NCBI GenBank assembly: GCA_946811185.2
Contig: OX328108.1
Span: forward strand, 21,833,239-21,897,238
Source of the DNA: Hippopus hippopus
Lineage: Eukaryota; Mollusca; Bivalvia; Cardiida; Cardiidae
Length of the DNA stretch: 64,000 bases
Reading direction: 5' to 3'
A model generated the notes under the pieces. That model saw only the letters and a program-made list of their open reading frames with translations. It made no database searches and was not told the origin of the DNA. Position numbers and translations under genes: made by a program. Positions 1 to 39,268 of the stretch are shown here, in pieces (positions within the stretch are counted from its first letter, which is position 1; each line of letters starts with the position of its first letter).

Positions 1-420
1 GTCTAACAGCACTACAAACTCTATCCGGGTCGTAGTAGTCAAAAGAAGTCCAAAATAGGCAGCGAGCGCTTCGCCTTATTATTATTAGTTTTTTTGGCCG
101 GGGTTTGGGGGTTCAGAGATAGTGAAAGGACAGGTCCGAAATATATTTCTAGTGTTGATTTGATGATATCTTTGAAAAGTGACTGCAACTTTTTTTATTT
201 TTTGAGAACTATTTTGGGCATGTTTCCAGAAAAGTAGCATTTCTACCATCCGGAAAGGCCTTCGTTAACAGTTTTTTTTACTAATCATAGTATACGATCT
301 TCGTAAGAGAGGCCCCGACTTGCAGTTAATGGGTTAAAAATTGTATAAAGAGGGGGGAGGAGGATTTATATTTGAAATGAGGGAAATGAGGGTTTGGGGT
401 CATTGTGAATTCTTGAAAAT

Positions 421-433
421 GGACTTTCTTTTG
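421..433 (-). promoter_or_regulatory. Histone downstream element-like purine tract (U7 snRNA target candidate)
   Basis: The minus strand reads CAAAAGAAAGTCC and begins 9 nt after the stem-loop. It is close to the CAAGAAAGA type of histone downstream element that base-pairs with U7 snRNA. Between the stem and this tract most units read AAACCAATT, giving an ACCA-like cleavage context. Copy 1 has AAATCAATT instead. No AATAAA signal lies nearby on this strand. Confidence 0.7.
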
Positions 434-442
434 AATTGATTT

Positions 443-458
443 GGCTCTTAAAAGGGCC
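443..458 (-). terminator. Histone-type 3'-end stem-loop (copy 1; same place in every unit)
   Basis: Read on the minus strand this is GGCCCUUUUAAGAGCC, which fits the metazoan replication-dependent histone consensus GGYYYUHHUHARRRCC at every position. It forms a 6-bp stem with one C-A mismatch and the four-base loop UUUA. It is preceded by AAAAC, as in many histone genes. It begins about 25 nt after the stop codon, inside the usual histone range. In every copy the element occupies the 16 nt starting 26 bases below the last base of the stop codon. Confidence 0.85.
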
Positions 459-483
459 GTTTTGAAGAAAACGACTTGAATAA

Positions 484-813
484 TTATTCAGAGTCGGAAG
501 AATAATCTGAGTCGGACGCCTGCACGATTTCCACGGATTCGTTGAACAGCTCCCGGCGAAGTTCGGCAACCTGGTCAGCTTTGCAATAGGCATAATCATA
601 ATACATGTTGCGTGCTCCTTCAATGACAGCAAGTTTCAGTCGAAGGTTATAGCGGAACGATCTGTTGTTTGCACGTTTTGCCATCTTGTAGCGTTTCTGC
701 ACCTCGCCTAGACGTTGGTTCAGCAAGACGATCTGGTCGCAGGCTTTTCTAAAACGTCGTTCAGTATCACTTAAAGTGAATCGTTTGTCAAGAGCTTTCA
801 TTCTTGAAGGCAT
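484..813 (-). CDS. Array gene copy 1: unrecognised 109-aa helical protein with histone-type mRNA 3' end
   Basis: I do not recognise this protein. Residues about 15-50 and 52-90 look like two long helices separated by a short polar turn (KRANNRS). The body is rich in Arg and Lys, with the segment SFRYNLRLKLAVIEGARNMY at its centre. The tail (about 100-109, SDSDYSSDSE) is acidic and serine-rich, with sites of the casein-kinase-2 type. No signal peptide, membrane segment, zinc site or clear histone fold is visible. The ATG at 813 has A at -3 and lies about 60 bp downstream of a TATA box, leaving room for a leader of only about 30 nt. There is one exon. The stop is followed after about 25 nt by a histone-type stem-loop (443-458) and a purine-rich element (421-433). 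This copy encodes the majority protein shared by 14 of the 29 copies. By analogy with histone genes I infer S-phase-coupled expression and possibly a chromatin role. Neither is shown by the sequence. Confidence 0.85.
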   Translation of the reverse strand: MPSRMKALDKRFTLSDTERRFRKACDQIVLLNQRLGEVQKRYKMAKRANNRSFRYNLRLKLAVIEGARNMYYDYAYCKADQVAELRRELFNESVEIVQASDSDYSSDSE

Positions 814-872: not shown

Positions 873-880
873 TATATATA
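873..880 (-). promoter_or_regulatory. TATA box of array gene (copy 1)
   Basis: TATATATA in the context gagaaTATATATAgcccgag on the minus strand lies 60 bp upstream of the ATG. It predicts a start site near 840-850 and a leader of about 30 nt. The box is present in all 29 copies at +60 from the first base of the ATG, or +57 in copies 8, 9, 15 and 19, which lack three leader bases. Confidence 0.75.
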
Positions 881-16006: not shown

Positions 16007-16846
16007 TGTAAATGGATTAACAACCTTTTCTTTCACAGTTGTATCAAACCAATAAAAACTACCGTCAAACAGTTATTTATTGATGATTTTTTTTATCCTA
16101 AATTTTGCTGTTCTTTGCTCGCCGGTGAAATATTAAGCTTTATATATATATATTAAATTCTACATGGAAATTTTGGGCGATTGCTGTATCATATCATGTT
16201 TGCTTATGAAAAAGAAGAAATAGTTTTTCTTCAAGCACGAAGGAGTTCATAATTTTGTTGTGTGGTTAATGGATAAACGTTTAATTATTTTCCCACTTTC
16301 CAGGATATGTGAAGCTTTCGATACGAGTGTCGAGAAGTCCTATATTCTCCTGTATTTTTTGGTCTAACAGCACTACGAACTAATTCCGGGTCGTAGTAGT
16401 CAAAAGAAGTCCAAAACAGGCAGCGAGCGCTTCGCCTTATTATTATTATTTTTTTTTTTGCCGGGGTTTGGGGGTTCAGAGATAGTGAAAGGACAGGTCC
16501 GAAATATATTTCTAGTGTTGATTTGATGATATCTTTGAAAAGTGACTGCAACTTTTTTTATTTTTTGAGAACTATTTTGGTCATGTTTCCAGAAAAGTAG
16601 CATTTCTACCATCCGAAAAGGCCTTCGTTAACAGTTTTTTTTACTAATCATAGTATACGATCTTCGTAAGAGAGGCCCCGACTTGCAGTTAATGGGTTAA
16701 ATATTGTATAAAGAGGGGGGAGGAGGATTTATATTTGAAATGAGGGAAATGAGGGTTTGGGGTCATTGACAATTCTTGAAAATGGACTTTCTTTTGAATT
16801 GGTTTGGCTCTTAAAAGGGCCGTTTTGAAGAAAACGACTTGAATAA

Positions 16847-17176
16847 TTATTCAGAGTCGGAAGAATAATCTGAGTCGGACGCCTGCACGATTTCCACGGA
16901 TTCGTTGAACAGCTCCCGGCGAAGTTCGGCAACCTGGTCAGCTTTGCAATAGGCATAATCATAATACATGTTGCGTGCTCCTTCAATGACAGCAAGTTTC
17001 AGTCGAAGGTTATAGCGGAACGATCTGTTGTTTGCACGTTTTGCCATCTTGTAGCGTTTCTGCACCTCGCCTAGACGTTGGTTCAGCAAGACGATCTGGT
17101 CGCAGGCTTTTCTAAAACGTCGTTCAGTATCACTTAAAGTGAATCGTTTGTCAAGAGCTTTCATTCTTGAAGGCAT
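16847..17176 (-). CDS. Array gene copy 2 (109 aa)
   Basis: First copy right of the inserted element. It encodes the majority protein. Stem-loop 16806-16821, TATA box 17236-17243, upstream palindrome 17370-17383. The promoter has CTATTAAC and TAATATACTC variants shared only with copy 4. The spacer on its 3' side is the short form, lacking the 334-bp segment (junction at 16239/16240). Confidence 0.85.
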   Translation of the reverse strand: MPSRMKALDKRFTLSDTERRFRKACDQIVLLNQRLGEVQKRYKMAKRANNRSFRYNLRLKLAVIEGARNMYYDYAYCKADQVAELRRELFNESVEIVQASDSDYSSDSE

Positions 17177-17626
17177 GTTGATGTTGTATCGATTTGGATA
17201 GCTAGTTGCTATTAACTTTTACGGTAGGCTCGGGCTATATATATTCTCGCATGGTCTAAGACTAATATACTCAAAATGCCAATGTCATATTATGACACCT
17301 AAACATTGTGCCAAAATGAGTTGACACTTAGCTAATTACGCACACGACTTTAGAACAACATCCTCGTTTGCTAATCGATTAGCCACGTGGGCATGTAAAT
17401 GGATTAACAACCTTTTCTTTCACAGTTCTATCAAACCAATAAAAACTACCGTCAAACAGTTATTTATTGATGATTTTTTTTATCCTAAATTTTGCTGTTC
17501 TTTGCTTGCCGGTGAAATATTAAGCTTTATATATATATATTAAATTCTACATGCAAATTTTGGGCGATTGCTGTATCATATCATGTTTGCTTCTGAAAAA
17601 GAAGAAATAGTTTTTCTTCAAGCACG

Positions 17627-17960
17627 ATTTATTTCAGACTCGAGGAAAGACCGGAAAAAACTACCCGAGCAATATTCATAGTTGATATGTTCTTCAGTTA
17701 CACATACTTTCATGTATTACTGAAAACAGCAGATACCGTAGGTTTCACTAAATAGACAGATTCTGTTAGAATGACATCAACCCTTTCCCAAACAATCCCG
17801 ACTTTTAACAGCCCTGAGAGAGAAGACTGTAGAAAACGTTGTGGGAAGATGCGGTAACCAGCATTTTCTCCTTTTTCTACGATGTTTTCTATCTAATCAA
17901 ATACAAGTTCCACAATTGGGGCCGCGTTTGATTTTGTCATTTGCAAAGGCTTTGGATACG
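17627..17960 (+). repeat. 334-bp spacer segment present in long units only (first example)
   Basis: Long units have this segment between ...AAGCACG and AAGGAGTTC. Short units join those two directly. The segment ends in ACG, repeating the ACG just before it, so it is either an insertion with a 3-bp duplication or, in the short units, a deletion across 3-bp microhomology. It includes GTAGAAAACGTTGTGGGAA...ACCAGCATTTTCTCC (about 17829-17893), a degenerate copy of the foldback motif found in the Polinton-like element. No inverted termini are visible. Confidence 0.85.
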
Positions 17961-18165
17961 AAGGAGTTCATAATTTTGTTGTGTGGTTAATGGATAAACG
18001 TGTAATTATTTTCCCACTTTCCAGGATATGTGAAGCTTTCGATACGAGTGTCGAGAAGTCCTATATTTTCCTGTATTTTTTGGTCTAACAGCACTACGAA
18101 CTCTTTCCGGGTCGTAGTAGTCAAAAGAAGTCCAAAATAGGCAGCGAGCGCTTCGCCTTATTATT

Positions 18166-18180
18166 ATTTTTTTTTACCGG
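18166..18180 (+). repeat. Variable triplet/poly-T microsatellite (example)
   Basis: Each unit has a run of TTC and TTA triplets followed by poly-T, just after GCGAGCGCTTCGCC. The composition varies from unit to unit (for example TTCTTCTTCTTATT at about 36800 against TTCTTATTATTATTATT at about 47140). It accounts for most length differences between units and tags related units. Confidence 0.85.
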
Positions 18181-18562
18181 GGTTTGGGGGTTCAGAGATA
18201 GTGAAAGGACAGGTCCGAAATATATTTCTAGTGTTGATTTGATGATATCTTTGAAAAGTGACTGCAACTTTTTTTATTTTTTGAGAACTATTTTGGGCAT
18301 GTTTCCAGAAAAGTAGCATTTCTACCATCCGGAAAGGCCTTCGTTAACAGTTTTTTTTACTAATCATAGTATACGATCTTCGTAAGAGAGGCCCCGACTT
18401 GCAGTTAATGGGTTAAAAATTGTATAAAGAGGGGGGAGGAGGATTTATATTTGAAATGAGGGAAATGAGGGTTTGGGGTCATTGACAATTCTTGAAAATG
18501 GACTTTCTTTTGAATTGGTTTGGCTCTTAAAAGGGCCGTTTTGAAGAAAACGACTTGAATAA

Positions 18563-18892
18563 TTATTCAGAGTCGGAAGAATAATCTGAGTCGGACGCCT
18601 GCACGATTTCCACGGTTTCGTTGAACAGCTCCCGGCGAAGTTCGGCAACCTGGTCAGCTTTGCAATAGGCATAATCATAATACATGTTGCGTGCTCCTTC
18701 AATGACAGCAAGTTTCAGTCGAAGGTTATAGCGGAACGATCTGTTGTTTGCACGTTTTGCCATCTTGTAGCGTTTCTGCACCTCGCCTAGACGTTGGTTC
18801 AGCAAGACGATCTGGTCGCAGGTTTTTCTAAAACGTCGTTCAGTATCACTTAAAGTGAATCGTTTGTCAAGAGCTTTCATTCTTGAAGGCAT
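18563..18892 (-). CDS. Array gene copy 3 (109 aa; A24T, S93T)
   Basis: The most divergent intact copy, with Ala24 to Thr in the first helix and Ser93 to Thr near the tail. Stem-loop 18522-18537, TATA box 18952-18959. Confidence 0.85.
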   Translation of the reverse strand: MPSRMKALDKRFTLSDTERRFRKTCDQIVLLNQRLGEVQKRYKMAKRANNRSFRYNLRLKLAVIEGARNMYYDYAYCKADQVAELRRELFNETVEIVQASDSDYSSDSE

Positions 18893-20290
18893 GTTGATGT
18901 TGTATCGATTTGGATAGCTAGTTGCTAATAACTTTTACGGTAGGCTCGGGCTATATATATTCTCGCATGGTCTAAGACTAATACACTCAAAATGCCAATG
19001 TCATATTATGACACCTAAACATTGTGCCAAAATGAGTTGACACTTAGCTAATTACGCACACGACTTTAGAACAACATCCTCGTTTGCTAATCGATTAGCC
19101 ACGTGGGCATGTAAATGGATTAACAACCTTTTCTTTCACAGTTGTATCAAACCAATAAAATCTACCGTGAAACAGTTATTTATTGATGATTTTTTTTATC
19201 CTAAATTTTGCTGTTCTTTGCTTGCCGGTGAAATATTAAGCTTTATATATATATATTAAATTCTACATGCAAATTTTGGGCGATTGCTGTATCATATCAT
19301 GTTTGCTTATGAAAAAGAAGAAATAGTTTTTCTTCAAGCACGATTTATTTCAGACTCGAGGAAAGACCGGAAAAAACTACCCGAGCAATATTCATAGTTG
19401 ATATGTTCTTCAGTTACACATACTTTCATGTATTACTGAAAACAGCAGATACCGTAGGTTTCACTAAATAGACAGATTCTGTTAGAATGACATCAACCCT
19501 TTCCCAAACAATCCCGACTTTTAACAGCCCTGAGAGAGAAGACTGTAGAAAACGTTGTGGGAAGATGCGGTAACCAGCATTTTCTCCTTTTTCTACGATG
19601 TTTTCTATCTAATCAAATACAAGTTCCACAATTGGGGCCGCGTTTGATTTGTCATTTGCAAAGGCTTTGGATACGAAGGAGTTCATAATTTTGTTGTGTG
19701 GTTAATGGATAAACGTGTAATTATTTTCCCACTTTCCAGGATATGTGAAGCTTTCGATACGAGTGTCGAGAAGTCCTATATTTTCCTGTATTTTTTGGTC
19801 TAACAGCACTACGAACTCTTTCCGGGTCGTAGTAGTCATAAGAAGTCCAAAATAGGCAGCGAGCGCTTCGCCTTCTTCTTATTATTATTATTTTTTTTTT
19901 TTTGGCGGGGTTTGGGGGTTCAGAGATAGTGAAAGGACAGGTCCGAAATATATTTCTAGTGTTGATTTGATGATATCTTTGAAAAGTGACTGCAACTTTT
20001 TTTATTTTTTGAGAACTATTTTGGTCATGTTTCCAGAAAAGTAGCATTTCTACCATCCGGAAAGGCCTTCGTTAACAGTTTTTTTTACTAATCATAGTAT
20101 ACGATCTTCGTAAGAGAGGCCCCGACTTGCAGTTAATGGGTTAAATATTGTATAAAGAGGGGGGAGGAGGATTTATATTTGAAATGAGGGAAATGAGGGT
20201 TTGGGGTCATTGACAATTCTTGAAAATGGACTTTCTTTTGAATTGGTTTGGCTCTTAAAAGGGCCGTTTTGAAGAAAACGACTTGAATAA

Positions 20291-20620
20291 TTATTCAGAG
20301 TCGGAAGAATAATCTGAGTCGGACGCCTGCACGATTTCCACGGATTCGTTGAACAGCTCCCGGCGAAGTTCGGCAACCTGGTCAGCTTTGCAATAGGCAT
20401 AATCATAATACATGTTGCGTGCTCCTTCAATGACAGCAAGTTTCAGTCGAAGGTTATAGCGGAACGATCTGTTGTTTGCACGTTTTGCCATCTTGTAGCG
20501 TTTCTGCACCTCGCCTAGACGTTGGTTCAGCAAGACGATCTGGTCGCAGGCTTTTCTAAAACGTCGTTCAGTATCACTTAAAGTGAATCGTTTGTCAAGA
20601 GCTTTCATTCTTGAAGGCAT
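20291..20620 (-). CDS. Array gene copy 4 (109 aa)
   Basis: Majority protein. Stem-loop 20250-20265, TATA box 20680-20687. It shares promoter variants with copy 2. The short-form spacer lies on its upstream side, between it and copy 5. Confidence 0.85.
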   Translation of the reverse strand: MPSRMKALDKRFTLSDTERRFRKACDQIVLLNQRLGEVQKRYKMAKRANNRSFRYNLRLKLAVIEGARNMYYDYAYCKADQVAELRRELFNESVEIVQASDSDYSSDSE

Positions 20621-21679
20621 GTTGATGTTGTATCGATTTGGATAGCTAGTTGCTATTAACTTTTACGGTAGGCTCGGGCTATATATATTCTCGCATGGTC
20701 TAAGACTAATATACTCAAAATGCCAATGTCATATTATGACACCTAAACATTGTGCCAAAATGAGTTGACACTTAGCTAATTACGCACACGACTTTAGAAC
20801 AACATCCTCGTTTGCTAATCGATTAGCCACGTGGGCATGTAAATGGATTAACAACCTTTTCTTTCACAGTTGTATCAAACCAATAAAAACTACCGTCAAA
20901 CAGTTATTTATTGATGATTTTTTTTATCCTAAATTTTGCTGTTCTTTGCTCGCCGGTGAAATATTAAGCTTTATATATATATATTAAATTCTACATGGAA
21001 ATTTTGGGCGATTGCTGTATTATATCATGTTTGCTTATGAAAAAGAAGAAATAGTTTTTCTTCAAGCACGAAGGAGTTCATAATTTTGTTGTGTGGTTAA
21101 TGGATAAACGTTTAATTATTTTCCCACTTTCCAGGATATGTGAAGCTTTCGATACGAGTGTCGAGAAGTCCTATATTCTCCTGTATTTTTTGGTCTAACA
21201 GCACTACGAACTATTTCCGGGTCGTAGTAGTCAAAAGAAGTCCAAAATAGGCAGCGAGCGCTTCGCCTTATTATCATTATTTTTTTTTTTTTGCCGGGGT
21301 TTGGGGGTTCAGAGATAGTGAAAGGACAGGTCCGAAATATATTTCTAGTGTTGATTTGATGATATCTTTGAAAAGTGACTGCAACTTTTTTTATTTTTTG
21401 AGAACTATTTTGGGCATGTTTCCAGAAAAGTAGCATTTCTACCATCCGGAAAGGCCTTCATTAACAGTTTTTTTTACTAATCATAGTATACGATCTTCGT
21501 AAGAGAGGCCCCGACTTGCAGTTAATGGGTTAAAAATTGTATAAAGAGGGGGGAGGAGGATTTATATTTGAAATGAGGGAAATGAGGGTTTGGGGTCATT
21601 GACAATTCTTGAAAATGGACTTTCTTTTGAATTGGTTTGGCTCTTAAAAGGGCCGTTTTGAAGAAAACGACTTGAATAA

Positions 21680-22009
21680 TTATTCAGAGTCGGAAGAATA
21701 ATCTGAGTCGGACGCCTGCACGATTTCCACGGATTCGTTGAACAGCTCCCGGCGAAGTTCGGCAACCTGGTCAGCTTTGCAATAGGCATAATTATAATAC
21801 ATGTTGCGTGCTCCTTCAATGACAGCAAGTTTCAGTCGAAGGTTATAGCGGAACGATCTGTTGTTTGCACGTTTTGCCATCTTGTAGCGTTTCTGCACCT
21901 CGCCTAGACGTTGGTTCAGCAAGACGATCTGGTCGCAGGCTTTTCTAAAACGTCGTTCAGTATCACTTAAAGTGAATCGTTTGTCAAGAGCTTTCATTCT
22001 TGAAGGCAT
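21680..22009 (-). CDS. Array gene copy 5 (109 aa; D73N)
   Basis: Carries Asp73 to Asn in the second helix (MYYNYAY), marking a subfamily. Stem-loop 21639-21654, TATA box 22069-22076. The spacer on its 3' side is the second short form (junction 21070/21071), giving the 1,389-bp interval to copy 4. Confidence 0.85.
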   Translation of the reverse strand: MPSRMKALDKRFTLSDTERRFRKACDQIVLLNQRLGEVQKRYKMAKRANNRSFRYNLRLKLAVIEGARNMYYNYAYCKADQVAELRRELFNESVEIVQASDSDYSSDSE

Positions 22010-23408
22010 GTTGATGTTGTATCGATTTGGATAGCTAGTTGCTAATAACTTTTACGGTAGGCTCGGGCTATATATATTCTCGCATGGTCTATGACTAATA
22101 CACTCAAAATGCCAATGTCATATTATGACACCTAAACATTGTGGCAAAATGAGTTGACACTTAGCTAATTACGCACACGACTTTAGAACAACATCCTCGT
22201 TTGCTAATCGATTAGCCACGTGGGCATGTAAATGGATTAACAACCTTTTCTTTCACAGTTGTATCAAACCAATAAAACCTACCGTCAAACAGTTATTTAT
22301 TGATGATGTTTTTTATCCTAAATTTTGCTGTTCTTTGCTTGCCGGTGAAATATTAAGCTTTATATATATATATTAAATTCTACATGCAAATTTTGGGCGA
22401 TTGCTGTATCATATCATGTTTGCTTATGAAAAAGAAGAAATAGTTTTTCTTCAAGCACGATTTATTTCAGACTCGAGGAAAGACCGGAAAAAACTACCCG
22501 AGCAATATTCATAGTTGATATGTTCTTCAGTTACACATACTTTCATGTATTACTGAAAACAGCAGATACCGTAGGTTTCACTAAATAGACAGATTCTGTT
22601 AGAATGACATCAACCCTTTCCCAAACAATCCCGACTTTTAACAGCCCTGAGAGAGAAGACTGTAGAAAACGTTGTGGGAAGATGCGGTAACCAGCATTTT
22701 CTCCTTTTTCTACGATGTTTTCTATCTAATCAAATACAAGTTCCACAATTGGGGCCGCGTTTGATTTTGTCATTTGCAAAGGCTTTGGATACGAAGGAGT
22801 TCATAATTTTGTTGTGTGGTTAATGGATAAACGTGTAATTATTTTCCCACTTTCCAGGATATGTGAAACTTTCGGAACGAGTGTCGAGAAGTCCTATATT
22901 TTCCTGTATTTTTTGGTCTAACAGCACTACGAACTCTTTCCGGATCGTAGTAGTCAAAAGAAGTCCAGAATAGGCAGCGAGCGCTTCGCCTTCTTATTAT
23001 TATTATTATTTTTTTTTTTTTGGCGGGGTTTGGGGGTTCAGAGATAGTGAAAGGACAGGTCCGAAATATATTTCTAGTGTTGATTTGATGATATCTTTGA
23101 AAAGTGACTGCAACTTTTTTTATTTTTTGAGAACTATTTTGGGCATGTTTCCAGAAAAGTAGCATTTCTACCATCCGGAAAGGCCTTCGTTAACAGTTTT
23201 TTTTACTAATCATAGTATACGATCTTCGTAAGAGAGGCCCCGACTTGCAGTTAATGGGTTAAATATTGTATAAAGAGGGGGGAGGAGGATTTATATTTGA
23301 AATGAGGGAAATGAGGGTTTGGGGTCATTGACAATTCTTGAAAGTGGACTTTCTTTTGAATTGGTTTGGCTCTTAAAAGGGCCGTTTTGAAGAAAACGAC
23401 TTGAATAA

Positions 23409-23738
23409 TTATTCAGAGTCGGAAGAATAATCTGAGTCGGACGCCTGCACGATTTCCACGGATTCGTTGAACAGCTCCCGGCGAAGTTCGGCAACCTGGT
23501 CAGCTTTGCAATAGGCATAATCATAATACATGTTGCGTGCTCCTTCAATGACAGCAAGTTTCAGTCGAAGGTTATAGCGGAACGATCTGTTGTTTGCACG
23601 TTTTGCCATCTTGTAGCGTTTCTGCACCTCGCCTAGACGTTGGTTCAGCAAGACGATCTGGTCGCAGGCTTTTCTAAAACGTCGTTCAGTATCACTTAAA
23701 GTGAATCGTTTGTCAAGAGCTTTCATTCTTGAAGGCAT
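23409..23738 (-). CDS. Array gene copy 6 (109 aa)
   Basis: Majority protein. Stem-loop 23368-23383, TATA box 23798-23805. One base change 3' of the processing region (GAAAGTGG at about 23340) is shared with copies 15, 19 and 28. Confidence 0.85.
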   Translation of the reverse strand: MPSRMKALDKRFTLSDTERRFRKACDQIVLLNQRLGEVQKRYKMAKRANNRSFRYNLRLKLAVIEGARNMYYDYAYCKADQVAELRRELFNESVEIVQASDSDYSSDSE

Positions 23739-25132
23739 GTTGATGTTGTATCGATTTGGATAGCTAGTTGCTAATAACTTTTACGGTAGGCTCGGGCTAT
23801 ATATATTCTCGCATGGTCTATGACTAATACACTCAAAATGCCAATGTCATATTATGACAGCTAAACATTGTGCCAAAATGAGTTGACACTTAGCTAATTA
23901 CGCACACGACTTTAGAACAACATCCTCGTTTGCTAATCGATTAGCCACGTGGGCATGTAAATGGATTAACAACCTTTTCTTTCACAGTTGTATCAAACCA
24001 ATAAAAACTACCGTCAAACAGTTATTTATTGATGATTTTTTTTATCCTAAATTTTGCTGTTCTTTGCTTGCCGGTGAAATATTAAGCTTTATATATATAT
24101 ATTAAATTCTACATGCAAATTTTGGGCGATTGCTGTATCATATCATGTTTGCTTATGAAAAAGAAGAAATAGTTTTTCTTCAAGCACGATTTATTTCAGA
24201 CTCGAGGAAAGACCGGAAAAAACTACCCGAGCAATATTCATAGTTGATATGTTCTTCAGTTACACATACTTTCATGTATTACTGAAAACAGCAGATACCG
24301 TAGGTTTCACTAAATAGACAGATTCTGTTAGAATGACATCAACCCTTTCCCAAACAATCCCGACTTTTAACAGCGCTGAGAGAGAAGACTGTAGAAAACG
24401 TTGTGGGAAGATGCGGTAACCAGCATTTTCTCCTTTTTCTACGATGTTTTCTATCTAATCAAATACAAGTTCCACAATTGGGGCCGCGTTTGATTTTGTC
24501 ATTTGCAAAGGCTTTGGATACGAAGGAGTTCATAATTTTGTTGTGTGGTTAATGGATAAACGTGTAATTATTTTCCCACTTTCCAGGATATGTGAAGCTT
24601 TCGATACGAGTGTCGAGAAGTCCTATATTCTCCTGTATTTTTTGGTCTAACAGCACTACGAACTCTTTCCGGGTCGTAGTAGTCAAAAGAAGTCCAAAAT
24701 AGGCAGCGAGCGCTTCGCCTTCTTCTTATTATTATTTTTTTTTTTGCCGGGGTTTGGGGGTTCAGAGATAGTGAAAGGACAGGTCCGAAATATATTTCTA
24801 GTGTTGATTTGATGATATCTTTGAAAAGTGACTGCAACTTTTTTTATTTTTTGAGAACTATTTTGGGCATGTTTCCAGAAAAGTAGCATTTCTACCATCC
24901 GGAAAGGCCTTCGTTAACAGTTTTTTTTACTAATCATAGTATACGATCTTCGTAAGAGAGGCCCCGACTTGCAGTTAATGGGTTAAATATTGTATAAAGA
25001 GGGGGGAGGATGATTTATATTTGAAATGAGGGAAATGAGGGTTTGGGGTCATTGACAATTCTTGAAAATGGACTTTCTTTTGAATTGGTTTGGCTCTTAA
25101 AAGGGCCGTTTTGAAGAAAACGACTTGAATAA

Positions 25133-25462
25133 TTATTCAGAGTCGGAAGAATAATCTGAGTCGGACGCCTGCACGATTTCCACGGATTCGTTGAACAGCT
25201 CCCGGCGAAGTTCGGCAACCTGGTCAGCTTTGCAATAAGGATAATCATAATACATGTTGCGTGCTCCTTCAATGACAGCAAGTTTCAGTCGAAGGTTATA
25301 GCGGAACGATCTGTTGTTTGCACGTTTTGCCATCTTGTAGCGTTTCTGCACCTCGCCTAGACGTTGGTTCAGCAAGACGATCTGGTCGCAGGCTTTTCTA
25401 AAACGTCGTTCAGTATCACTTAAAGTGAATCGTTTGTCAAGAGCTTTCATTCTTGAAGGCAT
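25133..25462 (-). CDS. Array gene copy 7 (109 aa; A75P)
   Basis: Unique Ala75 to Pro in the second helix (YDYPY), which might break the helix and reduce function. Stem-loop 25092-25107, TATA box 25522-25529. Leader variants (TTGTAACGATT, GTTGTTAATA) match copies 14 and 18. Confidence 0.82.
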   Translation of the reverse strand: MPSRMKALDKRFTLSDTERRFRKACDQIVLLNQRLGEVQKRYKMAKRANNRSFRYNLRLKLAVIEGARNMYYDYPYCKADQVAELRRELFNESVEIVQASDSDYSSDSE

Positions 25463-26862
25463 GTTGATGTTGTAACGATTTGGATAGCTAGTTGTTAATA
25501 ACTTTTACGGTAGGCTCGGGCTATATATATTCTCGCATGGTCTAAGACTAATACACTCAAAATGCCAATGTCATATTATGACAGCTAAACATTGTGCCAA
25601 AATGAGTTGACACTTAGCTAATTACGCACACGACTTTAGAACAACATCCTCGTTTGCTAATCGATTAGCCACGTGGGCATGTAAATGGATTAACAACCTT
25701 TTCTTTCACAGTTGTATCAAACCAATAAAAACTACCGTCAAACAGTTATTTATTGATGATTTTTTTTATCCTAAATTTTGCTGTTCTTTGCTTGCCGGTG
25801 AAATATTAAGCTTTATATATATATATTAAATTCTACATTCAAATTTTGGGCGATTGCTGTATCATATCATGTTTGCTTATGAAAAAGAAGAAATAGTTTT
25901 TCTTCAAGCACGATTTATTTCAGACTCGAGGAAAGACCGGAAAAAACTACCCGAGCAATATTCATAGTTGATATGTTCTTCAGTTACACATACTTTCATG
26001 TATTACTGAAAACAGCAGATACCGTAGGTTTCACTAAATAGACAGATTCTGTTAGAATGACATCAACCCTTTCCCAAACAATCCCGACTTTTAACAGCCC
26101 TGAGAGAGAAGACTGTAGAAAACGTTGTGGGAAGATGCGGTAACCAGCATTTTCTCCTTTTTCTACGATGTTTTCTATCTAATCAAATACAAGTTCCACA
26201 ATTGGGGCCGCGTTTGATTTTGTCATTTGCAAAGGCTTTGGATACGAAGGAGTTCATAATTTTGTTGTGTGGTTAATGGATAAACGTGTAATTATTTTCC
26301 CACTTTCCAGGATATGTGAAACTTTCGATACGAGTGTCGAGAAGTCCTATATTTTCCTGTATTTTTTGGTCTAACAGCACTACGAACTCTTTCCGGGTCG
26401 TAGTAGTCAAAAGAAGTCCAAAATAGGCAGCGAGCGCTTCGCCTTCTTATTATTATTATTATTTTTTTTTTTTTGGCGGGGTTTGGGGGTTCAGAGATAG
26501 TGAAAGGACAGGTCCGAAATATATTTCTAGTGTTGATTTGATGATATCTTTGAAAAGTGACTGCAACTTTTTTTTATTTTTTGAGAACTATTTTGGGCAT
26601 GTTTCCAGAAAAGTAGCATTTCTACCATCCGGAAAGGCCTTCGTTAACAGTTTTTTTTACTAATCATAGTATACGATCTTCGTAAGAGAGGCCCCGACTT
26701 GCAGTTAATGGGTTAAATATTGTATAAAGAGGGGGGAGGAGGATTTATATTTGAAATGAGGGAAATGAGGGTTTGGGGTCATTGACAATTCTTGAAAATG
26801 GACTTTCTTTTGAATTGGTTTGGCTCTTAAAAGGGCCGTTTTGAAGAAAACGACTTGAATAA

Positions 26863-27192
26863 TTATTCAGAGTCGGAAGAATAATCTGAGTCGGACGCCT
26901 GCACGATTTCCACGGATTCGTTGAACAGCTCCCGGCGAAGTTCGGCAACCTGGTCAGCTTTGCAATAGGCATAATCATAATACATGTTGCGTGCTCCTTC
27001 AATGACAGCAAGTTTCAGTCGAAGGTTATAGCGGAACGATCTGTTGTTTGCACGTTTTGCCATCTTGTAGCGTTTCTGCACCTCGCCTAGACGTTGGTTC
27101 AGCAAGACGATCTGGTCGCAGGCTTTTCTAAAACGTCGTTCAGTATCACTTAAAGTGAATCGTTTGTCAAGAGCTTTCATTCTTGAAGGCAT
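26863..27192 (-). CDS. Array gene copy 8 (109 aa)
   Basis: Majority protein. The leader lacks three bases (GTTGATGTATCG instead of GTTGATGTTGTATCG), moving the TATA box to 27249-27256. Stem-loop 26822-26837. Nearly identical to copy 9, including a CTTACCTAATT variant upstream, so the two are a recent tandem duplicate. Confidence 0.85.
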   Translation of the reverse strand: MPSRMKALDKRFTLSDTERRFRKACDQIVLLNQRLGEVQKRYKMAKRANNRSFRYNLRLKLAVIEGARNMYYDYAYCKADQVAELRRELFNESVEIVQASDSDYSSDSE

Positions 27193-28589
27193 GTTGATGT
27201 ATCGATTTGGATAGCTAGTTGCTAATAACTTTTACGGTAGGCTCGGGCTATATATATTCTCGCATGGTCTAAGACTAATACACTCAAAATGCCAATGTCA
27301 TATTATGACACCTAAACATTGTGCCAAAATGAGTTGACACTTACCTAATTACGCACACGACTTTAGAACAACATCCTCGTTTGCTAATCGATTAGCCACG
27401 TGGGCATGTAAATGGATTAACAACCTTTTCTTTCACAGTTGTATCAAACCAATAAAAACTACCGTCAAACAGTTATTTATTGATGATTTTTTTTATCCTA
27501 AATTTTGCTGTTCTTTGCTTGCCGGTGAAATATTAAGCTTTATATATATATATTAAATTCTACATTCAAATTTTGGGCGATTGCTGTATCATATCATGTT
27601 TGCTTATGAAAAAGAAGAAATAGTTTTTCTTCAAGCACGATTTATTTCAGACTCGAGGAAAGACCGGAAAAAACTACCCGAGCAATATTCATAGTTGATA
27701 TGTTCTTCAGTTACACATACTTTCATGTATTACTGAAAACAGCAGATACCGTAGGTTTCACTAAATAGACAGATTCTGTTAGAATGACATCAACCCTTTC
27801 CCAAACAATCCCGACTTTTAACAGCCCTGAGAGAGAAGACTGTAGAAAACGTTGTGGGAAGATGCGGTAACCAGCATTTTCTCCTTTTTCTACGATGTTT
27901 TCTATCTAATCAAATACAAGTTCCACAATTGGGGCCGCGTTTGATTTTGTCATTTGCAAAGGCTTTGGATACGAAGGAGTTCATAATTTTGTTGTGTGGT
28001 TAATGGATAAACGTGTAATTATTTTCCCACTTTCCAGGATATGTGAAACTTTCGATACGAGTGTCGAGAAGTCCTATATTTTCCTGTATTTTTTGGTCTA
28101 ACAGCACTACGAACTCTTTCCGGGTCGTAGTAGTCAAAAGAAGTCCAAAATAGGCAGCGAGCGCTTCGCCTTCTTATTATTATTATTATTTTTTTTTTTT
28201 TGGCGGGGTTTGGGGGTTCAGAGATAGTGAAAGGACAGGTCCGAAATATATTTCTAGTGTTGATTTGATGATATCTTTGAAAAGTGACTGCAACTTTTTT
28301 TTATTTTTTGAGAACTATTTTGGGCATGTTTCCAGAAAAGTAGCATTTCTACCATCCGGAAAGGCCTTCGTTAACAGTTTTTTTTACTAATCATAGTATA
28401 CGATCTTCGTAAGAGAGGCCCCGACTTGCAGTTAATGGGTTAAATATTGTATAAAGAGGGGGGAGGAGGATTTATATTTGAAATGAGGGAAATGAGGGTT
28501 TGGGGTCATTGACAATTCTTGAAAATGGACTTTCTTTTGAATTGGTTTGGCTCTTAAAAGGGCCGTTTTGAAGAAAACGACTTGAATAA

Positions 28590-28919
28590 TTATTCAGAGT
28601 CGGAAGAATAATCTGAGTCGGACGCCTGCACGATTTCCACGGATTCGTTGAACAGCTCCCGGCGAAGTTCGGCAACCTGGTCAGCTTTGCAATAGGCATA
28701 ATCATAATACATGTTGCGTGCTCCTTCAATGACAGCAAGTTTCAGTCGAAGGTTATAGCGGAACGATCTGTTGTTTGCACGTTTTGCCATCTTGTAGCGT
28801 TTCTGCACCTCGCCTAGACGTTGGTTCAGCAAGACGATCTGGTCGCAGGCTTTTCTAAAACGTCGTTCAGTATCACTTAAAGTGAATCGTTTGTCAAGAG
28901 CTTTCATTCTTGAAGGCAT
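28590..28919 (-). CDS. Array gene copy 9 (109 aa)
   Basis: Majority protein. Same three-base leader deletion as copy 8. Stem-loop 28549-28564, TATA box 28976-28983. Confidence 0.85.
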   Translation of the reverse strand: MPSRMKALDKRFTLSDTERRFRKACDQIVLLNQRLGEVQKRYKMAKRANNRSFRYNLRLKLAVIEGARNMYYDYAYCKADQVAELRRELFNESVEIVQASDSDYSSDSE

Positions 28920-30314
28920 GTTGATGTATCGATTTGGATAGCTAGTTGCTAATAACTTTTACGGTAGGCTCGGGCTATATATATTCTCGCATGGTCTAAG
29001 ACTAATACACTCAAAATGCCAATGTCATATTATGACACCTAAACATTGTGCCAAAATGAGTTGACACTTACCTAATTACGCACACGACTTTAGAACAACA
29101 TCCTCGTTTGCTAATCGATTAGCCACGTGGGCATGTAAATGGATTAACAACCTTTTCTTTCACAGTTGTATCAAACCAATAAAAACTACCGTCAAACAGT
29201 TATTTATTGATGATTTTTTTTATCCTAAATTTTGCTGTTCTTTGCTTGCCGGTGAAATATTAAGCTTTATATATATATATTAAATTCTACATGCAAATTT
29301 TGGGCGATTGCTGTATCATATCATGTTTGCTTATGAAAAAGAAGAAATAGTTTTTCTTCAAGCACGATTTATTTCAGACTCGAGGAAAGACCGGAAAAAA
29401 CTACCCGAGCAATATTCATAGTTGATATGTTCTTCAGTTACACATACTTTCATGTATTACTGAAAACAGCAGATACCGTAGGTTTCACTAAATAGACAGA
29501 TTCTGTTAGAATGACATCAACCCTTTCCCAAACAATCCCGACTTTTAACAGCCCTGAGAGAGAAGACTGTAGAAAACGTTGTGGGAAGATGCGGTAACCA
29601 GCATTTTCTCCTTTTTCAACGATGTTTTCTATCTAATCAAATACAAGTTCCACAATTGGGGCCGCGTTTGATTTTGTCATTTGCAAAGGCTTTGGATACG
29701 AAGGAGTTCATAATTTTGTTGTGTGGTTAATGGATAAACGTGTAATTATTTTCCCACTTTCCAGGATATGTGAAGCTTTCGATACGAGTGTCGAGAAGTC
29801 CTATATTCTCCTGTATTTTTTGGTCTAACAGCACTACGAACTCTTTCCGGGTCGTAGTAGTCAAAAGAAGTCCAAAATAGGCAGCGAGCGCTTCGCCTTC
29901 TTATTATTATTATTATTTTTTTTTTTTGCCGGGGTTTGGGGGTTCAGAGATAGTGAAAGGACAGGTCCGAAATATATTTCTAGTGTTGATTTGATGATAT
30001 CTTTGAAAAGTGACTGCAACTTTTTTTATTTTTTGAGAACTATTTTGGGCATGTTTCCAGAAAAGTAGCATTTCTACCATCCGGAAAGGCCTTCGTTAAC
30101 AGTTTTTTTTACTAATCATAGTATACGATCTTCGTAAGAGAGGCCCCGACTTGCAGTTAATGGGTTAAATATTGTATAAAGAGGGGGGAGGAGGATTTAT
30201 ATTTGAAATGAGGGAAATGAGGGTTTGGGGTCATTGACAATTCTTGAAAATGGACTTTCTTTTGAATTGGTTTGGCTCTTAAAAGGGCCGTTTTGAAGAA
30301 AACGACTTGAATAA

Positions 30315-30644
30315 TTATTCAGAGTCGGAAGAATAATCTGAGTCGGACGCCTGCACGATTTCCACGGATTCGTTGAACAGCTCCCGGCGAAGTTCGGCAA
30401 CCTGGTCAGCTTTGCAATAGGCATAATTATAATACATGTTGCGTGCTCCTTCAATGACAGCAAGTTTCAGTCGAAGGTTATAGCGGAACGATCTGTTGTT
30501 TGCACGTTTTGCCATCTTGTAGCGTTTCTGCACCTCGCCTAGACGTTGGTTCAGCAAGACGATCTGGTCGCAGGCTTTTCTAAAACGTCGTTCAGTATCA
30601 CTTAAAGTGAATCGTTTGTCAAGAGCTTTCATTCTTGAAGGCAT
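30315..30644 (-). CDS. Array gene copy 10 (109 aa; D73N)
   Basis: First of a run of four D73N copies (10-13). Stem-loop 30274-30289, TATA box 30704-30711. The spacer above it carries ATATAAAATTC and TTTTGCGCG variants typical of this run. Confidence 0.85.
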   Translation of the reverse strand: MPSRMKALDKRFTLSDTERRFRKACDQIVLLNQRLGEVQKRYKMAKRANNRSFRYNLRLKLAVIEGARNMYYNYAYCKADQVAELRRELFNESVEIVQASDSDYSSDSE

Positions 30645-32042
30645 GTTGATGTTGTATCGATTTGGATAGCTAGTTGCTAATAACTTTTACGGTAGGCTCG
30701 GGCTATATATATTCTCGCATGGTCTAAGACTAATACACTCAAAATGCCAATGTCATATTATGACAGCTAAACATTGTGCCAAAATGAGTTGACACTTAGC
30801 TAATTACGCACACGACTTTAGAACAACATCCTCGTTTGCTAATCGATTAGCCACGTGGGCATGTAAATGGATTAACAACCTTTTCTTTCACAGTTGTATC
30901 AAACCAATAAAAACTACCGTCAAACAGTTATTTATTGATGATTTTTTTTATCCTAAATTTTGCTGTTCTTTGCTTGCCGGTGAAATATTAAGCTTTATAT
31001 ATATATATAAAATTCTACATGCAAATTTTGCGCGATTGCTGTATCATATCATGTTTGCTTATGAAAAAGAAGAAATAGTTTTTCTTCAAGCACGATTTAT
31101 TTCAGACTCGAGGAAAGACCGGAAAAAACTACCCGAGCAATATTCATAGTTGATATGTTCTTCAGTTACACATACTTTCATGTATTACTGAAAACAGCAG
31201 ATACCGTAGGTTTCACTAAATAGACAGATTCTGTTAGAATGACATCAACCCTTTCCCAAACAATCCCGACTTTTAACAGCCCTGAGAGAGAAGACTGTAG
31301 AAAACGTTGTGGGAAGATGCGGTAACCAGCATTTTCTCCTTTTTCTACGATGTTTTCTATCTAATCAAATACAAGTTCCACAATTGGGGCCGCGTTTGAT
31401 TTTGTCATTTGCAAAGGCTTTGGATACGAAGGAGTTCATAATTTTGTTGTGTGGTTAATGGATAAACGTGTAATTATTTTCCCACTTTCCAGGATATGTG
31501 AAGCTTTCGATACGAGTGTCGAGAAGTCCTATATTCTCCTGTATTTTTTGGTCTAACAGCACTACGAACTCTTTCCGGGTCGTAGTAGTCAAAAGAAGTC
31601 CAAAATAGGCAGCGAGCGCTTCGCCTTCTTATTATTATTATTTTTTTTTTTTTTTGCCGGGGTTTGGGGGTTCAGAGATAGTGAAAGGACAGGTCCGAAA
31701 TATATTTCTAGTGTTGATTTGATGATATCTTTGAAAAGTGACTGCAACTTTTTTTATTTTTTGAGAACTATTTTGGGCATGTTTCCAGAAAAGTAGCATT
31801 TCTACCATCCGGAAAGGCCTTCGTTAACAGTTTTTTTTACTAATCATAGTATACGATCTTCGTAAGAGAGGCCCCGACTTGCAGTTAATGGGTTAAATAT
31901 TGTATAAAGAGGGGGGAGGAGGATTTATATTTGAAATGAGGGAAATGAGGGTTTGGGGTCATTGACAATTCTTGAAAATGGACTTTCTTTTGAATTGGTT
32001 TGGCTCTTAAAAGGGCCGTTTTGAAGAAAACGACTTGAATAA

Positions 32043-32372
32043 TTATTCAGAGTCGGAAGAATAATCTGAGTCGGACGCCTGCACGATTTCCACGGATTCG
32101 TTGAACAGCTCCCGGCGAAGTTCGGCAACCTGGTCAGCTTTGCAATAGGCATAATTATAATACATGTTGCGTGCTCCTTCAATGACAGCAAGTTTCAGTC
32201 GAAGGTTATAGCGGAACGATCTGTTGTTTGCACGTTTTGCCATCTTGTAGCGTTTCTGCACCTCGCCTAGACGTTGGTTCAGCAAGACGATCTGGTCGCA
32301 GGCTTTTCTAAAACGTCGTTCAGTATCACTTAAAGTGAATCGTTTGTCAAGAGCTTTCATTCTTGAAGGCAT
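32043..32372 (-). CDS. Array gene copy 11 (109 aa; D73N)
   Basis: Same protein as copy 10. Stem-loop 32002-32017, TATA box 32432-32439. Its 3' spacer has an expanded poly-T (about 31640). Confidence 0.85.
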   Translation of the reverse strand: MPSRMKALDKRFTLSDTERRFRKACDQIVLLNQRLGEVQKRYKMAKRANNRSFRYNLRLKLAVIEGARNMYYNYAYCKADQVAELRRELFNESVEIVQASDSDYSSDSE

Positions 32373-33765
32373 GTTGATGTTGTATCGATTTGGATAGCTA
32401 GTTGCTAATAACTTTTACGGTAGGCTCGGGCTATATATATTCTCGCATGGTCTAAGACTAATACACTCAAAATGCCAATGTCATATTATGACAGCTAAAC
32501 ATTGTGCCAAAATGAGTTGACACTTAGCTAATTACGCACACGACTTTAGAACAACATCCTCGTTTGCTAATCGATTAGCCACGTGGGCATGTAAATGGAT
32601 TAACAACCTTTTCTTTCACAGTTGTATCAAACCAATAAAAACTACCGTCAAACAGTTATTTATTGATGATTTTTTTTATCCTAAATTTTGCTGTTCTTTG
32701 CTTGCCGGTGAAATATTAAGCTTTATATATATATATAAAATTCTACATGCAAATTTTGCGCGATTGCTGTATCATATCATGTTTGCTTATGAAAAAGAAG
32801 AAATAGTTTTTCTTCAAGCACGATTTATTTCAGACTCGAGGAAAGACCGGAAAAAACTACCCGAGCAATATTCATAGTTGATATGTTCTTCAGTTACACA
32901 TACTTTCATGTATTACTGAAAACAGCAGATACCGTAGGTTTCACTAAATAGACAGATTCTGTTAGAATGACATCAACCCTTTCCCAAACAATCCCGACTT
33001 TTAACAGCCCTGAGAGAGAAGACTGTAGAAAACGTTGTGGGAAGATGCGGTAACCAGCATTTTCTCCTTTTTCTACGATGTTTTCTATCTAATCAAATAC
33101 AAGTTCCACAATTGGGGCCGCGTTTGATTTTGTCATTTGCAAAGGCTTTGGATACGAAGGAGTTCATAATTTTGTTGTGTGGTTAATGGATAAACGTGTA
33201 ATTATTTTCCCACTTTCCAGGATATGTGAAGCTTTCGATACGAGTGTCGAGAAGTCCTATATTTTCCTGTATTTTTTGGTCTAACAGCACTACGAACTCT
33301 TTCCGGGTCGTAGTAGTCAAAAGAAGTCCAAAATAGGCAGCGAGCGCTTCGCCTTCTTCTTATTATTATTTTTTTTTTGCCGGGGTTTGGGGGTTCAGAG
33401 ATAGTGAAAGGACAGGTCCGAAATATATTTCTAGTGTTGATTTGATGATATCTTTGAAAAGTGACTGCAACTTTTTTTATTTTTTGAGAACTATTTTGGG
33501 CATGTTTCCAGAAAAGTAGCATTTCTACCATCCGGAAAGGCCTTCGTTAACAGTTTTTTTTACTAATCATAGTATACGATCTTCGTAAGAGAGGCCCCGA
33601 CTTGCAGTTAATGGGTTAAATATTGTATAAAGAGGGGGGAGGAGGATTTATATTTGAAATGAGGGAAATGAGGGTTTGGGGTCATTGACAATTCTTGAAA
33701 ATGGACTTTCTTTTGAATTGGTTTGGCTCTTAAAAGGGCCGTTTTGAAGAAAACGACTTGAATAA

Positions 33766-34095
33766 TTATTCAGAGTCGGAAGAATAATCTGAGTCGGACG
33801 CCTGCACGATTTCCACGGATTCGTTGAACAGCTCCCGGCGAAGTTCGGCAACCTGGTCAGCTTTGCAATAGGCATAATTATAATACATGTTGCGTGCTCC
33901 TTCAATGACAGCAAGTTTCAGTCGAAGGTTATAGCGGAACGATCTGTTGTTTGCACGTTTTGCCATCTTGTAGCGTTTCTGCACCTCGCCTAGACGTTGG
34001 TTCAGCAAGACGATCTGGTCGCAGGCTTTTCTAAAACGTCGTTCAGTATCACTTAAAGTGAATCGTTTGTCAAGAGCTTTCATTCTTGAAGGCAT
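33766..34095 (-). CDS. Array gene copy 12 (109 aa; D73N)
   Basis: Same protein as copy 10. Stem-loop 33725-33740, TATA box 34155-34162. Essentially identical to copy 13 over the unit (both intervals 1,723 bp). Confidence 0.85.
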   Translation of the reverse strand: MPSRMKALDKRFTLSDTERRFRKACDQIVLLNQRLGEVQKRYKMAKRANNRSFRYNLRLKLAVIEGARNMYYNYAYCKADQVAELRRELFNESVEIVQASDSDYSSDSE

Positions 34096-35488
34096 GTTGA
34101 TGTTGTATCGATTTGGATAGCTAGTTGCTAATAACTTTTACGGTAGGCTCGGGCTATATATATTCTCGCATGGTCTAAGACTAATACACTCAAAATGCCA
34201 ATGTCATATTATGACAGCTAAACATTGTGCCAAAATGAGTTGACACTTAGCTAATTACGCACACGACTTTAGAACAACATCCTCGTTTGCTAATCGATTA
34301 GCCACGTGGGCATGTAAATGGATTAACAACCTTTTCTTTCACAGTTGTATCAAACCAATAAAAACTACCGTCAAACAGTTATTTATTGATGATTTTTTTT
34401 ATCCTAAATTTTGCTGTTCTTTGCTTGCCGGTGAAATATTAAGCTTTATATATATATATAAAATTCTACATGCAAATTTTGCGCGATTGCTGTATCATAT
34501 CATGTTTGCTTATGAAAAAGAAGAAATAGTTTTTCTTCAAGCACGATTTATTTCAGACTCGAGGAAAGACCGGAAAAAACTACCCGAGCAATATTCATAG
34601 TTGATATGTTCTTCAGTTACACATACTTTCATGTATTACTGAAAACAGCAGATACCGTAGGTTTCACTAAATAGACAGATTCTGTTAGAATGACATCAAC
34701 CCTTTCCCAAACAATCCCGACTTTTAACAGCCCTGAGAGAGAAGACTGTAGAAAACGTTGTGGGAAGATGCGGTAACCAGCATTTTCTCCTTTTTCTACG
34801 ATGTTTTCTATCTAATCAAATACAAGTTCCACAATTGGGGCCGCGTTTGATTTTGTCATTTGCAAAGGCTTTGGATACGAAGGAGTTCATAATTTTGTTG
34901 TGTGGTTAATGGATAAACGTGTAATTATTTTCCCACTTTCCAGGATATGTGAAGCTTTCGATACGAGTGTCGAGAAGTCCTATATTTTCCTGTATTTTTT
35001 GGTCTAACAGCACTACGAACTCTTTCCGGGTCGTAGTAGTCAAAAGAAGTCCAAAATAGGCAGCGAGCGCTTCGCCTTCTTCTTATTATTATTTTTTTTT
35101 TGCCGGGGTTTGGGGGTTCAGAGATAGTGAAAGGACAGGTCCGAAATATATTTCTAGTGTTGACTTGATGATATCTTTGAAAAGTGACTGCAACTTTTTT
35201 TATTTTTTGAGAACTATTTTGGGCATGTTTCCAGAAAAGTAGCATTTCTACCATCCGGAAAGGCCTTCGTTAACAGTTTTTTTTACTAATCATAGTATAC
35301 GATCTTCGTAAGAGAGGCCCCGACTTGCAGTTAATGGGTTAAATATTGTATAAAGAGGGGGGAGGAGGATTTATATTTGAAATGAGGGAAATGAGGGTTT
35401 GGGGTCATTGACAATTCTTGAAAATGGACTTTCTTTTGAATTGGTTTGGCTCTTAAAAGGGCCGTTTTGAAGAAAACGACTTGAATAA

Positions 35489-35818
35489 TTATTCAGAGTC
35501 GGAAGAATAATCTGAGTCGGACGCCTGCACGATTTCCACGGATTCGTTGAACAGCTCCCGGCGAAGTTCGGCAACCTGGTCAGCTTTGCAATAGGCATAA
35601 TTATAATACATGTTGCGTGCTCCTTCAATGACAGCAAGTTTCAGTCGAAGGTTATAGCGGAACGATCTGTTGTTTGCACGTTTTGCCATCTTGTAGCGTT
35701 TCTGCACCTCGCCTAGACGTTGGTTCAGCAAGACGATCTGGTCGCAGGCTTTTCTAAAACGTCGTTCAGTATCACTTAAAGTGAATCGTTTGTCAAGAGC
35801 TTTCATTCTTGAAGGCAT
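35489..35818 (-). CDS. Array gene copy 13 (109 aa; D73N)
   Basis: Same protein as copy 10. Stem-loop 35448-35463, TATA box 35878-35885. Its 3' spacer differs from copy 12 by a T-to-C change near 35163. Confidence 0.85.
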   Translation of the reverse strand: MPSRMKALDKRFTLSDTERRFRKACDQIVLLNQRLGEVQKRYKMAKRANNRSFRYNLRLKLAVIEGARNMYYNYAYCKADQVAELRRELFNESVEIVQASDSDYSSDSE

Positions 35819-37212: not shown

Positions 37213-37542
37213 TTATTCAGAGTCGGAAGAATAATCTGAGTCGGACGCCTGCACGATTTCCACGGATTCGTTGAACAGCTCCCGGCGAAGTTCGGCAACC
37301 TGGTCAGCTTTGCAATAGGCATAATCATAATACATGTTGCGTGCTCCTTCAATGACAGCAAGTTTCAGTCGAAGGTTATAGCGGAACGATCTGTTGTTTG
37401 CACGTTTTGCCATCTTGTAGCGTTTCTGCACCTCGCCTAGACGTTGGTTCAGCAAGACGATCTGGTCGCAGGCTTTTCTAAAACGTCGTTCAGTATCACT
37501 TAAAGTGAATCGTTTGTCAAGAGCTTTCATTCTTGAAGGCAT
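37213..37542 (-). CDS. Array gene copy 14 (109 aa)
   Basis: Majority protein. Stem-loop 37172-37187, TATA box 37602-37609. The upstream palindrome is changed to GCCAATCGATTAGC (about 37736-37749), a variant seen again only in copy 18, 6,894 bp away. Confidence 0.85.
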   Translation of the reverse strand: MPSRMKALDKRFTLSDTERRFRKACDQIVLLNQRLGEVQKRYKMAKRANNRSFRYNLRLKLAVIEGARNMYYDYAYCKADQVAELRRELFNESVEIVQASDSDYSSDSE

Positions 37543-38938: not shown

Positions 38939-39268
38939 TTATTCAGAGTCGGAAGAATAATCTGAGTCGGACGCCTGCACGATTTCCACGGATTCGTTGA
39001 ACAGCTCCCGGCGAAGTTCGGCAACCTGGTCAGCTTTGCAATAGGCATAATCATAATACATGTTGCGTGCTCCTTCAATGACAGCAAGTTTCAGTCGAAG
39101 GTTATAGCGGAACGATCTGTTGTTTGCACGTTTTGCCATCTTGTAGCGTTTCTGCACCTCGCCTAGACGTTGGTTCAGCAAGACGATCTGGTCGCAGGCT
39201 TTTCTAAGACGTCGTTCAGTATCACTTAAAGTGAATCGTTTGTCAAGAGCTTTCATTCTTGAAGGCAT
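38939..39268 (-). CDS. Array gene copy 15 (109 aa; F21L)
   Basis: Phe21 to Leu in the first helix, plus the three-base leader deletion. Stem-loop 38898-38913, TATA box 39325-39332. All its markers recur in copy 19. Confidence 0.85.
   Translation of the reverse strand: MPSRMKALDKRFTLSDTERRLRKACDQIVLLNQRLGEVQKRYKMAKRANNRSFRYNLRLKLAVIEGARNMYYDYAYCKADQVAELRRELFNESVEIVQASDSDYSSDSE

Follow-up and report, generated by a model that had tools for sequence, protein, structure and literature searches.

Histone-type 3' end signals on a tandem non-histone gene family and on dispersed element genes in Hippopus hippopus

Passages of three papers state that, among known mRNAs, only those of replication-dependent histones have a stem-loop in place of poly(A) at their end (PMC6303110, PMC7026596, PMC1924863), and an excerpt of a fourth states that, as of 2009, SLBP had never been implicated in the direct regulation of other genes (PMC2781718). 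A 64,000-nt stretch of the Hippopus hippopus genome (C13:21833239-21897238, hereafter the window) contains a tandem array of 109-codon genes that a first-pass annotation described as non-histone genes ending like histone genes. Does a family that encodes no histone carry this ending, how good is the signal, and where else does it occur? These questions were addressed using the window and searches of the 1.07 Gb genome.

Organisation of the array and its encoded protein

Array genes, stems and downstream elements all lie on the minus strand of the window. In unit 1, the 109-codon ORF (484..813) encodes a basic two-helix protein with an acidic Ser/Asp tail, and a TATATATA box (873..880) is located 67 nt upstream of the ATG. 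The stem-loop GGCCCUUUUAAGAGCC (443..458), which contains a C4·A13 mismatch, starts 25 nt past the stop and is followed after 9 nt by CAAAAGAAAG (424..433), a candidate histone downstream element (U7 target). Further downstream, the position of a second motif, ATTGTCAAT, is altered to ATTCACAAT in unit 1 only (402..410). Unit 2 has its stem-loop at 16806..16821, CAAAAGAAAG at 16787..16796 and an unaltered ATTGTCAAT at 16765..16773, 32 nt past the stem, which is like the element found after this species' own histone stems. The window part of the array includes 28 further gene units (16847..63420); past unit 2 the spacing is mostly ~1.72 kb, with one interval of 1.39 kb, and 27 more stems are found up to position 63065. 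The whole array extends over C13 about 21697265-21955708, where 131 of the 150 scored protein matches in the genome are located.

The window contains 29 stem copies of GGCCCTTTTAAGAGCC, all exact (29/29). Shuffled windows gave 0.08 consensus matches on average and none of 100 shuffles reached 29. An intact 109-codon ORF with its stop 25 nt before the stem was present in 28 of the 29 units (the exception, at 54416, carries a frameshift), confirming the placement of a stem-loop about 25 nt past the stop in the first-pass annotation; 27 of these ORFs are identical or near-identical to the one in unit 1. CAAAAGAAAG was found within 25 nt past the stem in 29/29 units and ATTGTCAAT within 60 nt in 28/29, starting at 9 nt and 32 nt, respectively, in the unit measured. 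The context just after the stem is AAACCA in the array and AAATCA in unit 1, in agreement with the ACCA-like context noted before. A genome-wide search with the exact array stem followed by TGTCAAT returned 133 matches, at least 100 of them on C13 in the array, and none in the control.

The 27 full units share a mean identity of 99.4%; because the copies are near-identical, they count as one observation and not as 29. Among these units, variable columns made up 4.15% of the upstream spacer and 1.8% of the ORF; there were none in the 25 nt between stop and stem or in the 16-nt stem, and 1/29 just past the stem. The invariance of these two stretches is weak evidence since they are short (41 bases), and the polymorphism of the array (5 nonsynonymous, 1 synonymous) is uninformative. 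Immediately 5' of the histone-type stem, and overlapping it by one base, each of the 29 units has another perfect hairpin, CGUUUUCUUCAAAACG (e.g. 458-473, minus strand).

In line with the first-pass annotation, the protein is not a histone. A Pfam search with the 109-aa sequence gave no significant match and no histone up to E 1, the only hit being DUF349 at E 0.4; a PDB sequence search gave no match up to E 1. The protein has a pI of 9.5 and is predicted to fold into a two-helix hairpin (helices 2-47 and 51-90, mean pLDDT 87) followed by a disordered acidic tail. Histone identity was rejected on both grounds, the absence of a Pfam histone match and a predicted fold that is not histone-like. 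At the sequence level, the data support a non-histone, single-exon tandem family bearing a histone-type 3' end. The basic core, the acidic tail and the histone-type regulation lead us to guess at a nuclear role, linked to DNA replication or to the early embryo.

Homologue searches found 211, 601 and 99 sequences, the best 120, 120 and 99 of which were examined. Organisms named among the homologues listed were Mya, Mizuhopecten, Dreissena, Pinctada, Magallana and Tegillarca, all of which we take to be bivalves. Several homologue clusters are large (135 sequences in P0046, with one contig given), which suggests tandem arrays in other genomes.

A mismatched stem and its putative counterparts in homologues

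The stem had been called a full match to the consensus GGYYYUHHUHARRRCC. This is true of the letters in 29/29 copies; the consensus tests letters and does not enforce pairing, and in the array stem C4 faces A13, so that this position is unpaired. The C·A mismatch is fixed across the array, and the stem folds at -4.6 kcal/mol, compared with -9.4 kcal/mol with U4. It is one base off GGCCCUUUUAAGGGCC, the stem of the species' own H3, H4 and H2A genes. A search with the Rfam histone 3' element model, proposed in the first-pass annotation, gave a mixed outcome: RF00032 was the best family for 29/29 array stems, but their scores (23.9-24.7 bits, E 0.014-0.029) did not reach the gathering score of 34. 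The species' own histone ends scored 37.9 (H2A.X-like), 35.2 (H4), 33.5 (H2A), 32.4 (H2B), 31.5 (H3) and 30.0 (H1). Four of these six ends (30.0-33.5) also miss 34, which makes the cut-off strict for Hippopus hippopus, and the array scores lower than all six. The absence of a nearby AATAAA held locally; in the unit consensus, one occurs 259 nt past the stem start.

Homologues gave indirect access to the same ending. Some have C-terminal extensions with W or Q at the position of the relatives' stop, and we infer that these are gene calls under another code that read into the 3' UTR. In a set of 187 proteins, the end of the core could be recognised and was followed by a tail of 30 residues or more in 30, and these tails were back-translated. 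Of the 30 tails, which are not independent as several are near-copies, 14 were compatible with the full 16-nt consensus, against 0-1% of shuffles per tail and 1/187 control cores. Tails such as NGSFQSH imply a paired U4-A13, whereas those of P0006, P0015, P0022, P0023 and P0185 imply C4 with A13, like the array; the mismatch thus appears to be long-lasting across relatives. In a tree that included P0104, P0110 and P0153 as compatible members, these and the array fell on separate branches.

The 16 tails that did not fit were those of P0070, P0119 and 14 members of one clade (P0123-P0138), so that back-translation to the consensus did not recover the 3' signal from any of the 14 tails tested in that clade. 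The C-termini of clade P0122-P0138 are alternative and spliced-looking, and P0122 is found in 241 contigs. This clade is possibly an ordinary polyadenylated form of the family.

The same ending on histone genes and on a dispersed element

The main histone cluster lies on another contig than the array (C15, around 40.57-41.47 Mb). In the copies read, its stems are GGCCCTTTTAAGGGCC (H3, H4, H2A), GGCCCTTATCAGGGCC (H2B) and GGTCCTTTTCAGGACC (H1), and the six own histone genes (one copy each) have the same architecture as the array genes. A [GT]TGTCA motif at +15 to +60 past the stem, present in 1.4% of shuffled flanks, was found in these 6/6 genes, in the array unit and in 23/23 ends of the element described below, mostly inside AATTGTCAAT. 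TGTCA starts at +30 to +37 in all element ends except L014, where the first one is at +17. The 3' flanks of the own histone genes (L059, L060, L062) carry this TGTCA-containing element 30-34 nt past the stem in 6/6 genes, and it resembles the U7 Sm site; we know of no name for it. An excerpt on the bivalve Lucina pectinata reports that every one of its histone mRNAs has the stem-loop and that purine-rich elements are present in part of them.

Outside C13, 19 scored matches on 11 contigs encode a 97-aa relative. Similarity between these loci extends over as much as 3 kb, with identity up to 96%, and most of their stems are fully paired, of the type AGCCCUUUUCAGGGCU. The tally of stems covers 16 relatives: 12 have exactly AGCCCTTTTCAGGGCT, 2 a fully paired variant and 2 a broken pair (14/16 fully paired). 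Of two more loci read, L012 has AGCCCTTTTCAGGGCT as well, and no fully paired stem follows the 97-aa gene in L009. The ending is not restricted to this gene. At five loci, 12 of the 18 gene-strand ORFs longer than 60 codons have a fully paired stem in the 50 nt downstream of them; these 12 encode the 97-aa and a 95-aa relative, a Cys-rich protein and other small proteins, and the other six ORFs include two that overlap stem-bearing genes. Genome-wide, the exact AU-type stem followed by TGTCAAT gave 1,346 matches, a number of ends and not of elements (the places listed are all on C1), and none in the control.

The AU-type 16-mer is nearly invariant. Among 16 distinct ends, the outer stem pair is GC in 7 and AU in 9, a change from G-C to A-U that keeps pairing, and 96.9% of cells are paired. 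The covariation score was 0.250 against 0.142 in shuffles and was reached by 0/500 of them; the 16 ends were chosen by us, and relatedness inflates such scores. Two counts were not above shuffles, namely pairs changed on both sides (80/500) and further pair types (498/500).

On C3, a 14-kb region (about 1746730-1761100; L069, L067, L017 and L068) has 11 histone-type ends in two inverted arms around a centre of broken polymerase-like pieces. For 7 of these 11 stems, the 220 nt upstream include the end of an ORF longer than 75 codons; no such stem follows the polymerase pieces or a zinc-knuckle ORF. In a Pfam scan of ten ORFs from four loci, one of the C3 polymerase pieces reached DNA_pol_B_2 at E 0.074, below cut-off, and three pieces are 34-38% identical to polymerase ORFs of the window that are themselves DNA_pol_B_2 matches. 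These window ORFs (3180-5675 and 5600-7672, overlapping) belong to a polymerase-bearing element that lies between array units 1 and 2 (about 1035-15997). Its inverted terminal repeats (about 1005-2487 and 14536-16023) are ~1.49 kb long and 97% identical, and a search of its interior found no stem followed by TGTCA.

Promoters were compared over 180 nt upstream of the ATG, using five regions against six own histone promoters and 300 shuffles. All four element promoters tested resembled the own H2A promoter (z 14.5, 13.9, 7.5 and 6.3; 0/300 shuffles each), and that of the 95-aa gene also matched own H1 (z 12.4; 0/300 shuffles). The array promoter matched none of the six histone promoters (z at most 0.5); it apparently aligns with that of an element gene over the TATA box and leader.

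Could the element ends be hitchhiking repeat DNA, a cassette of ~70 bp duplicated along with the element, whose hairpin has no role in RNA? The near-invariance of the 16-mer and the similarity of loci over 3 kb are consistent with this, as is the lack of an ORF longer than 75 codons just upstream of 4 of the 11 C3 ends. However, variation falls on the letters between the stem, loop, purine box and TTGTCA, which are themselves kept, and fully paired stems follow 12 of 18 ORFs closely. The main element gene has a median dN/dS of 0.28, with a range of 0 to 1.26 over 167 usable pairs from 19 copies selected for being intact. Together with the histone-like promoters, these observations make the hitchhiking explanation quite improbable. 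Comparisons of array and element genes gave dN/dS of about 0.6 to 1.6 (six comparisons).

Amplification of a chance hairpin by the array is the least credible explanation, to the point of being nearly negligible. In its favour, the 29 copies amount to one event and score below the RF00032 cut-off. Against it, the signal is deduced in relatives, occurs genome-wide on other genes and comes with a shared TGTCA element; taken over the array, relatives and element, the sequence signals are very unlikely to have arisen by chance. The new class of gene proposed in the first-pass annotation, a tandem non-histone family, stands as far as the single-exon family and its histone-type 3' end are concerned, but the class is wider than one tandem family since the same ends are spread genome-wide on a mobile element.

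Candidate processing and its possible timing

The sequence signals, their order, their conservation and their genomic distribution are direct observations; the steps that involve RNA or protein are deduced from them. The best reading, with a probability of roughly two in three, is that array and element genes are processed like histone mRNAs. The array gene would encode a bivalve non-histone protein from a gene built like replication-dependent histone genes, with a single-exon ORF, a TATA box, a short stop-to-stem distance, a tandem arrangement, a stem-loop, a purine-rich downstream element and ATTGTCAAT. SLBP would bind the stem-loop and U7 snRNP would pair with the purine element, the pre-mRNA would be cut a few nucleotides past the stem, and the mRNA would have no poly(A) tail. 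The product would be a small basic coiled-coil protein, needed in large amounts either during DNA replication or in the egg and early embryo.

The search for a U7 partner gave a tentative candidate. An RF00066 search of the genome returned three weak hits (best E 0.77). The best U7-like hit, L071 (C10:24660450-24660800), contains CTCTTTCTAAATTTGTCTAG, which is typical of U7, but no clear 3' hairpin was seen in it; a shorter pattern of its core gave 1 hit against 5 in the reversed control. L071 may be a U7 gene, a U7 pseudogene or a chance match. For 11 of 23 downstream elements of the mobile element, no more than 1 of 200 shuffles paired with this candidate as well as the real sequence did; the other 12 fell short. 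The array purine element paired at -6.3 kcal/mol, with 39/200 shuffles as good, and for the own histone genes 2 to 79 of 200 shuffles did as well, most falling short. CAAAAGAAAG, present in 29/29 units, is a candidate U7 target whose pairing with the only U7-like sequence found is not significant.

This weak pairing of the array, together with the fixed C·A mismatch and the AATAAA 259 nt downstream, favours the view that the array signal is a relic or impaired: it would once have worked, and the array mRNAs would now mostly be polyadenylated downstream. We regard this as unlikely. The 25 nt and the 16-nt stem are invariant in the 27 full units against 4.15% variation in the spacer (weak evidence, with 41 bases), and the five homologue tails implying C4 with A13 suggest that the mismatch has persisted across relatives. 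The element version has the stronger signals, and the C·A mismatch may weaken that of the array.

A further alternative concerns timing. The signal could work uncoupled from replication: the hairpin would give oocytes or germ cells a maternal mRNA that lacks poly(A) and can be stored. Eggs store much mRNA, and short multicopy genes suit bulk supply in the germline. Nothing decisive stands against this possibility, as it shares its sequence evidence with histone-like processing coupled to replication; the two overlap on RNA processing and differ in timing. We consider it plausible, though the less probable of the two.

Under replication-coupled processing, the several small genes of the dispersed polymerase-bearing element, which share the 3' signal and have better stems and histone-like promoters, would have their expression tied to host S phase. 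A more specific reading, on which we are evenly divided, is that the small genes of a mobile element (a transposon or an endogenous virus-like element) mimic replication-dependent histone genes by means of H2A/H1-like promoters, hairpin, U7 target and TGTCA, so that expression of the element is tied to host S phase and polyadenylation is bypassed, while a related host tandem family uses the same ending.

Like animal replication-dependent histone genes, the array has single-exon ORFs, a TATA box and a tandem arrangement, with a stem-loop 25 nt past the stop, then a purine box, and TGTCA as in the own histone genes. Unlike them, it encodes a non-histone protein, has a C·A mismatch in its stem and lies on C13 and not with the histone cluster on C15; the element version differs by its A-U outer pair. 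Some histone variant or orphan histone genes have histone-type ends outside the main cluster (such as the H2A.X-like gene at C15:26492280), but the array family encodes no histone. Like the Polinton/Maverick-like elements that bear DNA polymerase B, the element is repeated and dispersed, and its inverted arms flank pieces apparently related to type B DNA polymerase. It differs in that several small genes in its arms have histone-type 3' ends and, in the four cases tested, promoters resembling those of histone genes; a literature search that named Polinton/Maverick elements returned no report of this kind.

If the mobile-element reading is correct, SLBP/U7 processing would serve non-histone genes by the hundred within a single species. 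An exception extending over a family and an element would show that other genes can acquire the histone-type ending, and would point to a route by which mobile DNA could link its expression to replication of the host. The C·A mismatch and the A-U outer pair would be natural variants for testing the rules of SLBP and U7.

A stem was also seen away from both the array and the histone genes. The orphan stem GGTCCTTTTAAGGGCC (L063 about 5068-5112; C8:42665067) has no histone ORF seen upstream; it lies downstream of a transposase-looking ORF, scores 31.4 bits and has an ACCCA context.
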